Below, piece after piece: positions 7,491-9,835 of a stretch of DNA of 64,000 nucleotides. The stretch is from assembly GCF_004348455.1 (NCBI RefSeq), contig NZ_SMKA01000005.1, positions 1 to 64,000 of the forward strand, given 5' to 3'. Below the pieces are notes generated by a model. The model saw only the letters and a program-made list of their open reading frames with translations, made no database searches and was not told the DNA's origin. The number at the start of each line of letters is the position of its first letter. Position 1 is the stretch's first letter. The DNA is from Kribbella albertanoniae (GTDB lineage: Bacteria > Actinomycetota > Actinomycetes > Propionibacteriales > Kribbellaceae). The translations under genes and the position numbers were made by a program.

Positions 7491-8432
7491 ATGACGAGGC
7501 CCACGCAGGACGACGTACTCGGGTACTTCGACACACTGTCGAACTGGGGACGGTGGGGCGACGACGACCAGCTCGGCACGCTGAACCACATCACCGACGA
7601 CGTCCGGCTGGCGGCAGCACGGGCCGTGCGCCACGGCCGGAGCGTTTCGTGCGCCTGGGAGATCGCCGTACCGGGTGAGATGGAGCGGGCGACCAATGTG
7701 TGTCCGTGCGCGGTAGAGATGCCGGGTGCCGAGCACATGCCGGAGCTGTTCCAGAACGACCGGCGCTGGGGCTTCTCGAACGAGCGCCTCGGCATCATGT
7801 TCCACGGCAACACGATCACCCACCTGGACTCGCCGTGCCACCTGCTCTGGGACGGCAAGCTGTACAACGGGCGGTCGCACTCGATGATCGACGCCGAGAC
7901 CGGGTCGGCGTGGGCAGCGGTCACGGCGGCGGCGCACGGGATCGTCACCCGTGGTGTCGTGCTGGACATCGCAGCGATCCGCGACGTGCCGTGGCTGCAG
8001 CCGGGGGAGGGCGTGTTCCCCGAGGACCTCGAGGCGGCCGAGCGTCGCCAGGGCGTGCGGGTGCAGTCCGGCGACGCGCTACTCATCCGGACCGGCTACG
8101 GCCGCGCTCGGCACGAGTCTGGGCCCTCGGGCGGTATGACGCAGGCCGGCTGGCACGCGTCCTGTCTGCCGTGGCTGCAGGAGCGGGAGGTCGCGCTGAT
8201 CGGCGCCGACACCCCACAGGACGTGCAGCCTTCCGGGTACGACGACGTGCTGATGCCGGTGCACGCCGTGAGCCTCGTCGCGATGGGCCTGTGGATGCTC
8301 GACAACTGCGACCTCGAGGAGTGCGTGACGACGGCTGCCGAGCTCGGTCAGTGGGACTTCCAGCTCGCCGTTGCACCAGTCCGCTTCGCCGGTACGTCGG
8401 GTAGCCCGGTCAACCCGATCGCCACCTTCTAG
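7491..8432 (+). CDS. Cyclase-family metal-dependent hydrolase (kynurenine formamidase-like)
   Basis: A 313-residue protein of the putative cyclase family. The metal/active-site motif HGNTITHLDSPCH lies near residues 103-116, with a late acidic/histidine region (GADTPQDVQP). The ATG at 7491 was chosen because GGAGGAGG sits 9 bases upstream; the open frame extends further but only through shadow of the previous gene. It follows YhgE/Pip by 19 bp and may be co-transcribed. Family members hydrolyse amides or lactones; the substrate is unknown. Its stop codon TAG is completed by the first base of the inserted hairpin element. Confidence 0.82.
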   Translation: MTRPTQDDVLGYFDTLSNWGRWGDDDQLGTLNHITDDVRLAAARAVRHGRSVSCAWEIAVPGEMERATNVCPCAVEMPGAEHMPELFQNDRRWGFSNERLGIMFHGNTITHLDSPCHLLWDGKLYNGRSHSMIDAETGSAWAAVTAAAHGIVTRGVVLDIAAIRDVPWLQPGEGVFPEDLEAAERRQGVRVQSGDALLIRTGYGRARHESGPSGGMTQAGWHASCLPWLQEREVALIGADTPQDVQPSGYDDVLMPVHAVSLVAMGLWMLDNCDLEECVTTAAELGQWDFQLAVAPVRFAGTSGSPVNPIATF

Positions 8433-8594
8433 TGCCCTGCATCGGATGTTGTTTGAGTGATTGCGGCGTCCAGGTGCGTGCATCGCGGTGCCGGAGGAGC
8501 GGCCTCGATGCTTTTCCATCGTGGCTGTTCCTCCGGTGCCGTGAGGTGCGTGCCTGGGCGTCGCAAGCGCCAAAGAACATTCGATGCAGGGCAC
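8432..8594. mobile_element. 163-bp MITE-like hairpin element flanked by TA
   Basis: GTGCCCTGCATCG at 8432-8444 is repeated inverted at the right end (8582-8594), and the two 80-bp arms remain alignable to the centre (CGATGCTTTTCCATCG). Most arm differences are transitions that keep G-U pairing in RNA. TA stands directly outside both ends (8430-8431 and 8595-8596), the target duplication typical of IS630/Tc1-type elements. There is no transposase inside. It separates the convergent cyclase and ceramidase-like genes and contributes a base to both stop codons, so it may also serve as a bidirectional terminator. Confidence 0.75.
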
Positions 8595-9835
8595 TAAGCG
8601 TTGACGAAGGCTGCCGTCTCGGCCACCAACTGGTTGGTCGTCGGCTGGTCGAAGTAGGTGATGAGCGCTTCGTACACACCTGCCTCGGCCGCGGTCGGGT
8701 CGACGACGTACCCGAAGTAGCCGTCCGAGTAGCCGATGACCCGGGTGATCGGGTGGCTGCTCTTCTCCTGCAGGACGGCACCATGCAGGGCGAACAGCTC
8801 GACCGGCAGGTTGACCCAGCACACGTCGCCCAAGGTGACCACGCTGACCGGTAGCTCAAGTTCGGCGGGCAGGTCGGCCGCAGCCATCAGCGCCTGGCCC
8901 CGGGCGCCGTCCAGGCGGGTCTGCGCGATCCTGGCCGACGGATCGTCCACTCCAGTCCGGATGGACCGCTCCGCAGCTCTGACAATCGCTGCGGCGTCGC
9001 CGGCGGGAGGCAGCGACCGCACCGGCAGCCGAAGCGCCGTACGGCGAATGCTGGGAGCCGTTGAAGGTAAGGCGAGCCCTGGCTCAGCCAGAGCCGCCCG
9101 GACGCGCGTTGCCAGCAGCTCACCCAGTCTGGTGATCTCAGCCGCACCACGTCCCTGCCGAGTGAACCGCGGGCTGACATCACCGGCCGCACCCTGCAGA
9201 TAGCCGACCACAGCCGGCCCGAGCGCAGCCCTGGCCGCACCGGGCCAGTCAGCCGACCACAGCAGGTTCTCCGGCCCGTATGTCGTCGGATGGCATGCGA
9301 AGTCCAACAGGACTGCCTGCAGCGAACCAGTCAGCGAGTGCAGCGCGAGCACTCCGGCCGTGTTGTCGTGCGGACCGTCCTCCCGATGCCGATTGGTACC
9401 GACCCCAGTCACTTCAACCGACCGCCACGACGCCACCACCGGCTGCCGGGCCAGTACGGCGTTCGCGACCGCCGAGACGAGTGGTTCGTACAGTCCGGCC
9501 TCACGCTCGGCCGGAATGACCGGGTGGATCTGGCCGGTCCACCCGCTCGGTCCGGAGTGCGTGTGCGAGGCCGACACGACTACATGTTCGGCCGGGATAC
9601 CGGCGGCGTGGCTGGCCGCTGCGGACAGTTCGGCGGTCAACTCCGCGCCGACCGCGATCGCGTCCAGCGTCAACCACAGCACGCCGGGGGCGTCCGCCGT
9701 AGTGAGCCAGATGATGGTGGCGCGGAGTGGGTCGGCCGTACCGGTCGCCGGGCCCGTGCGGGCGGCGTACCCGTCCAGGAGGTGGCCGGGGGGAGGTGTT
9801 ACGTCCAGGGAGGTCGCTGCGAGCAACAGATCCAT
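8594..9835 (-). CDS. Neutral/alkaline ceramidase N-terminal-like hydrolase
   Basis: A 413-residue protein starting MDLLLAATSLDVTPPPG. It carries the features of the neutral ceramidase N-terminal fold: the opening strand ending in TPP, a metal-type SASHTHSGPSG motif near residue 100, DFACHPTTYGP near 190, and YLQGAAGDVSP near 220. It is much shorter than true ceramidases and lacks their C-terminal Ig domain. Such proteins are frequent at the end of sugar ABC operons, where they probably hydrolyse an amide-bearing substrate. The start overlaps the permease stop (TGATG). The stop codon is completed by the adjacent hairpin element. Confidence 0.75.
   Translation of the reverse strand: MDLLLAATSLDVTPPPGHLLDGYAARTGPATGTADPLRATIIWLTTADAPGVLWLTLDAIAVGAELTAELSAAASHAAGIPAEHVVVSASHTHSGPSGWTGQIHPVIPAEREAGLYEPLVSAVANAVLARQPVVASWRSVEVTGVGTNRHREDGPHDNTAGVLALHSLTGSLQAVLLDFACHPTTYGPENLLWSADWPGAARAALGPAVVGYLQGAAGDVSPRFTRQGRGAAEITRLGELLATRVRAALAEPGLALPSTAPSIRRTALRLPVRSLPPAGDAAAIVRAAERSIRTGVDDPSARIAQTRLDGARGQALMAAADLPAELELPVSVVTLGDVCWVNLPVELFALHGAVLQEKSSHPITRVIGYSDGYFGYVVDPTAAEAGVYEALITYFDQPTTNQLVAETAAFVNA

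Follow-up and report, generated by a model that had tools for sequence, protein, structure and literature searches.

A 163-bp hairpin lying between two convergent genes of Kribbella albertanoniae belongs to a mobile, palindromic family of IS630-type MITEs whose arms pair faultlessly on one strand only, and among the Kribbella matches listed that strand is nearly always the leading-strand template. The copy that led us to the family lies in the window, a stretch of 64,000 nucleotides (contig NZ_SMKA01000005.1, positions 1 to 64,000), where it forms the stop codons of both its neighbours. We think it probable that the element is an IS630-type MITE whose copies were oriented, and are kept paired, by replication-coupled processes acting after insertion; the replication mechanism taken by itself is put forward more tentatively. 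As a rule, palindromic MITEs are regarded as passengers in decay. In seven complete Kribbella genomes, more than 120 natural copies tie the strand asymmetry of a hairpin to the direction of replication, and orthologous copies allow compensatory change to be tracked in place, offering a comparative test, within a single genus, of how long palindromes are tolerated, oriented and repaired at the fork. The open-access literature yielded no report of this hairpin family or of replication-oriented IS630 MITEs, and our claims to novelty rest on that, not on proven absence.

The preliminary description had proposed a TA-flanked 163-bp hairpin at 8432-8594 with reverse-complementary ends, and the sequence agrees in each respect. 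The element runs from GTG to CAC between TA at 8430-8431 and TA at 8595-8596, the terminal 13 bases on the left (GTGCCCTGCATCG) recur on the right as an exact reverse complement, and the whole of 8430-8596 reads TA-GTGCCCTGCATCG...CGATGCAGGGCAC-TA. As RNA, 8432-8594 folds into a single hairpin of -142.9 kcal/mol, compared with an average of -69.6 for shuffled sequences (z -18.4). As DNA, the fold reaches -74.6 kcal/mol on the + strand and -50.2 on the - strand, the latter being weaker because numerous differences between the arms read as G.T on + but as A.C on -. No second long hairpin of the same kind was found in the 64-kb window. The element and its surroundings comprise the following features:

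7494..8432, + strand: putative cyclase gene (PF04199), its stop common with the element; domain match and orthologues with the same C-terminus
8430..8431, no strand: left TA target copy, which with G8432 gives the cyclase stop TAG at 8430-8432
8432..8594, + as sense strand: palindromic element of 163 bp; fold z -18.4, covariance-model score 118.8 bits on + against 59.7 on -
8432..8455, + strand: left outer arm, variable between copies and matched to its own right arm (94.6% Watson-Crick against 52% with arms swapped)
8470..8485, + strand: conserved left core CCAGGTGCGTGCATCG with one same-strand repeat AGGTGCGTGC inside (93-copy consensus)
8542..8557, + strand: conserved right core, here TGAGGTGCGTGCCTGG, with the second AGGTGCGTGC copy (93-copy consensus; pairing)
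8571..8594, + strand: right outer arm (outer-arm pairing across copies)
8594..9790, - strand: neutral/alkaline ceramidase-like gene (weak, sub-threshold PF04734), its stop common with the element
8595..8596, no strand: right TA target copy, which with C8594 gives the minus-strand gene's stop TAG at 8594-8596 (read on -)

The two cores, 8470-8485 and 8542-8557, pair through conserved G.U wobbles. Because the ends read TA-G...C-TA, TAG is restored on both sides, each stop consisting of the flanking TA and the terminal base of the element, as had been claimed. The plus-strand cyclase ends ...NPIATF-TAG (TTC-TAG, 8432) and the minus-strand ceramidase-like gene ...AAFVNA-TAG (GCT-TAG, 8594). The further claim that the cyclase kept its length also holds, given that in 17 close orthologues (82-91% identity) the reading frame closes behind the same ...NPIATF codon, mostly at TGA and in one case, L256, at TAA (TTCTAACGG). 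No instance of the supposed pre-insertion site, TTCTAAGCG, turned up at the window locus among the 17 orthologues, a consequence of the fact that all have different right-hand neighbours and none shares that of the window. Synteny breaks off at the cyclase end (window 7494-9790), where nearly every relative has a different downstream neighbour, and the element may indicate the junction of a rearrangement there.

As anticipated, the element is not alone: about 40 matches to it were found in its own genome, among the matches listed, and a covariance model of the core detected 9-29 copies in each of the seven complete Kribbella genomes (7/7 positive, among the matches listed). At 163 bp, the element is short, non-coding and multicopy, as IS630-type MITEs are. 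Beyond Kribbella, the core is found unaltered in Microlunatus, Actinomadura, Pseudonocardia, Nocardioides and others, with a patchy distribution across other Actinomycetota; the phylum-wide model search used strict filters and the best 12 candidates per genome, and its low count is therefore a lower bound. Kribbella itself holds a second subfamily (L022-L027, L056-L064, L321-L380), with ends TAGGGCGTGTCTCTTAAG, TAGGTCCTGTCTGGTGATCC and many others, in which the middle hardly varies and the outer arms are different in nearly all copies. Streptomyces sp. SID13031 (L168, L169), a record that may be a misnamed Kribbella, also has copies of Kribbella type whose ends match.

Mobility of the family is well supported. 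Genome G015 carries five copies that are 99-100% identical over 168 bases (four at 100% and one at 99% to the query), and at one G015 locus (L089) the orthologous sites of G002, G007, G010 and G011 are empty, with a single TTCTAGC. These empty sites, which coincide with the stop of the left gene, read ACCTTCTAG (or TCCTTCTAG), and the filled site reads ACCTTC-TAG-TGTCC...GGACA-CTAG-C. Insertion duplicated TA or CTAG at L089, the two being indistinguishable there; other copies, such as that of the window, show duplication of TA only, and many older copies have TA on one side only. The search for an empty site thus gave a clean one in a stop codon at another locus and none at the window locus. 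Among further candidates only L045/L056 was informative (same end codon, TGA vs TAG), the others being too diverged. Ten near-identical copies in Microlunatus parietis are a sign of recent activity.

The same species supplied the link to a transposase. An 883-bp M. parietis element (L418/L431), whose ends TAGTGTCGTGCGTC resemble those of the local hairpins, encodes a DDE_3 domain (E 6.6e-21) in a gene split across two overlapping frames, and we class this transposase as IS630 type. In Kribbella, seven transposase loci (L435, L438, L439, L440, L446, L450 and L451) have TA-flanked TAGTG/TAGCG inverted ends. The expectation of a full IS630-like element with the same ends was thereby borne out in part: ends are shared in M. 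parietis, those in Kribbella are similar but not identical (L439, L440, L435), and no IS630 element was found to match the ends of the window copy beyond TAGTG and partial similarity. Mobilisation of the window copy by a given transposase is thus something that we infer. The partner type was traced starting from M. parietis rather than from Kribbella ends; the latter, used as bait for an autonomous partner, yielded deletion remnants and one cargo-bearing element, with no transposase. Taken together, the multiple copies, some of them recent and identical, the empty site and the occurrence, in the same genera, of IS630 elements whose ends are related uphold the original assignment to a TA-inserting, non-autonomous palindromic element of IS630 type.

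Deletion remnants are present in two genera. In genome G020, palindromes of 23-39 bp made of element ends only (L276:1493, L280:2072, L284:2171, L285:2393, L291:2125, L293:2308) are internal-deletion remnants, and M. parietis has some twelve solo scars of the form TAGTGTCGTGCGTCCCTAG, or TAGTGTCG[TC]GCGTCCCTAG (L411, L413, L414, L427, L428 and others), which are explained by slippage between the terminal CTAG and another CTAG within the left arm.

The arms of each copy are matched to each other. Across 93 non-redundant copies, 94.6% of outer pairs were Watson-Crick, compared with about 52% when arms were swapped between copies, and nearly every outer pair occurred as three or four Watson-Crick types. 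The mispairs that do exist are one-sided, with 58 G.T against 4 A.C in the outer arms and 756 against 11 overall; other mismatches are also skewed (G.G over C.C, G.A over C.T), and core wobbles are fixed, T.G being found at one position in 91/93 copies. At ten orthologous loci, 4-15 double compensatory changes separate the copies. Among single changes, those that preserve a standard pair are far more numerous than fresh A.C mismatches, and change is greater in the arms than in the core; the comparison covered all pairs but the last two. The sense-strand fold has therefore been either held under constraint or re-established at its site well after insertion; the folded molecule may be an RNA or a single strand of DNA. 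Arm-to-arm repair as the sole cause is ruled out by the G.T/A.C asymmetry, and the conserved core wobbles speak against it too, as such repair alone should erase them. Strand-biased mutation alone was likewise rejected, the roughly 15-fold asymmetry in the outer arms and the excesses of G.G over C.C and G.A over C.T being too large for it. Strand biases in mutation are usually modest in bacteria.

In Kribbella, the strand with G.T rather than A.C differences also has a nearly constant relation to replication. With the origin placed at dnaA and the terminus assumed opposite, 121 of the 123 model matches listed for the seven complete Kribbella genomes (those beyond them were mostly antisense and weak) had their sense strand as leading-strand template, and the two exceptions resemble one orthologous locus (L372, L373). 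The corresponding p-value of 1e-33 is too small because some copies are shared vertically, yet single genomes are decisive alone (20/20 and 29/29). Draft genomes gave the same picture: 17 contigs carried two or more copies, and all 22 comparisons of neighbours on the same contig agreed. On the window contig, part of a 593-contig draft, a weak GC skew would make the window copy an exception to the replichore rule. The copies of M. parietis, which are mostly recent, showed no bias (6/12), and two identical ones lie 457 bp apart in opposite directions; insertion itself therefore appears to be unoriented. In G015, each of the five recent copies has the correct orientation, which would occur by chance in about 3% of cases if insertion were random and hints at an insertion-level bias in Kribbella. 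Pairing on one strand and orientation by replichore exceed the ordinary features of a MITE.

Under the reading that we favour, an ancient non-autonomous palindromic family would have inserted at TA, often within CTAG, its copies being moved by IS630-type transposases acting on the TAGTG ends. In a G+C-rich genome the non-coding TA sites include stop codons, so that copies often land exactly in a stop, which simply explains the frequency of that location for a TA-inserting element, and the TA-G...C-TA ends restore TAG for the gene on either or both sides. In Kribbella the sense strand, with its unbroken fold, nearly always serves as leading-strand template, and the lagging-strand template carries the weaker, A.C-mismatched hairpin. 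Copies in the wrong orientation would be lost by slippage or inverted in place, the middle being flipped through the arms, and this sorting would proceed until the A.C-mismatched strand faced the lagging template; the 23-39-bp remnants and the scars are the visible trace of slippage loss. The arms would be kept paired by template-switch repair or by selection of the sense fold. Sorting after insertion is favoured because near-identical ends give a transposase little to orient by. A stronger version, in which the Kribbella hairpins are a domesticated MITE, forming replication-polar single-strand structures with a fork-oriented function and held by selection on the sense fold (core with paired AGGTGCGTGC), strikes us as doubtful.

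Two other readings, both unlikely in our judgement, account for part of these data. In the first, a transcribed sense hairpin is selected for a role in mRNA stability, as an RNase III site, as an attenuator or as a small RNA, as in NEMIS and ERIC, whose RNA effects have been reviewed (PMC2229807). Tolerance of G.U but not of A.C and conservation of the core in place are what such a hairpin would require, but flanking genes show every direction with respect to the element (-- 50, -+ 34, ++ 31, +- 15), orientation follows replication and not transcription, and in Rfam no family reached its gathering score, the best hits being chance matches to miRNA-precursor models far below their cut-offs. In the second, orientation is set at insertion, by a transposase reaching the fork via the sliding clamp, as in several IS families, or by use of the single-stranded lagging template, as in IS200/IS605. 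Replication-oriented insertion has precedents in IS200/IS605, Tn7 and other IS families (PMC5371812), and the five G015 copies would fit. Against it stand the unoriented recent copies of M. parietis and the near identity of the two ends, and neither the TA duplication seen at the empty site nor the fold-competent strand, which here is not the lagging template, resembles IS200/IS605.

It is distinctly less probable that the family is an inert IS630 MITE, its paired arms being a by-product of transposition and neutral template-switch homogenisation with no strand-specific constraint. The anatomy is that of a MITE, the IS630 ends fit, and according to two reports template switching homogenises inverted-repeat arms and inverts spacers (PMC8604942, PMC7202029). 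Strand asymmetry, however, already strains this reading: homogenisation should neither spare conserved G.T wobbles in the core nor yield G.T and A.C at 756:11, and it does not itself produce an orientation of 121/123 (among the matches listed).

Stop codons are a frequent home for the element. As judged with gene calls from a simple codon-usage gene caller, the stop of a neighbouring gene coincides exactly with the border TAG in 37 of 130 copies, or at 43 of the 65 intact borders faced by a gene, and six of the 130, the window copy included, serve two convergent genes at once. In the window, 14 TA sites lie in stops and 231 are intergenic (5 and 23 for CTAG), and stops are therefore over-represented as insertion targets. 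The simplest reading of this excess is CTAG-preferring insertion with survival of harmless insertions, followed by selection keeping TAG. The proposal that the hairpin is a bidirectional terminator selected at a convergent stop/stop junction suits a very stable hairpin between convergent genes but is very improbable, as copies are not enriched between convergent genes (15/130, against 6/49 neighbour pairs in the window), copy orientation follows replication rather than flanking genes, neither end of the window hairpin has a T run, and in 17 relatives the cyclase was not found to be followed by such a hairpin.

Among known systems, an IS200/IS605 or REP (HUH Y1) identity was rejected, given that recent copies have TA on both sides, the empty site has it once and the outer bases vary. 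IS200/IS605 and REP/RAYT are not known to duplicate TA. These elements do form single-strand hairpins, and the orientation of IS200/IS605 follows replication (PMC5371812, PMC6006769). Unlike the Kribbella element, they insert without target duplication 3' of a fixed tetra- or pentanucleotide, and their folding strand lies in the lagging-strand template, where the Kribbella sense strand is the leading-strand template (121/123, among the matches listed). RUP of Streptococcus pneumoniae (IS630-Spn1) is similarly small and non-coding, with TA at both ends and IS630-like terminal inverted repeats (PMC2229807), whereas the Kribbella element is nearly all one hairpin, with ends that differ widely between copies and yet are complementary, and its copies keep a one-strand fold in place and follow the replichore. 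ERIC/IRU (127 bp) and Correia/NEMIS are likewise TA-ended, intergenic, stem-loop-forming palindromic MITEs (PMC2229807) but differ in sequence and hosts, and for these the open-access literature yielded no report of replication-set orientation or of copy-by-copy covariation of the arms. Quasipalindrome template-switch hotspots resemble the family in that a replication process equalises the arms and can invert the middle (PMC8604942, PMC7202029); they are a mutational process, not an element, and would not keep conserved core wobbles.

Three loci or groups of loci deserve separate mention. One copy (L102, G023 near 1,087,949) lies within another inverted repeat, AACCCGGGACAC...GTGTCCCGGGTT, as if it had landed in a terminator-like hairpin. 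The ends of G020 contigs C21, C32, C40 and C65 hold fragments of IS630-type transposases, as expected of an unresolved multicopy IS630-type element, possibly an active one. Finally, a 1.65-kb element at L275:1928-3578 (G020 C21) has ends of the same type of about 37 bp (TAGTGTCGTGAGTCGG...), CTAG on both sides and an epoxide hydrolase gene in place of the hairpin middle, and is possibly a cargo-bearing relative of the hairpin.
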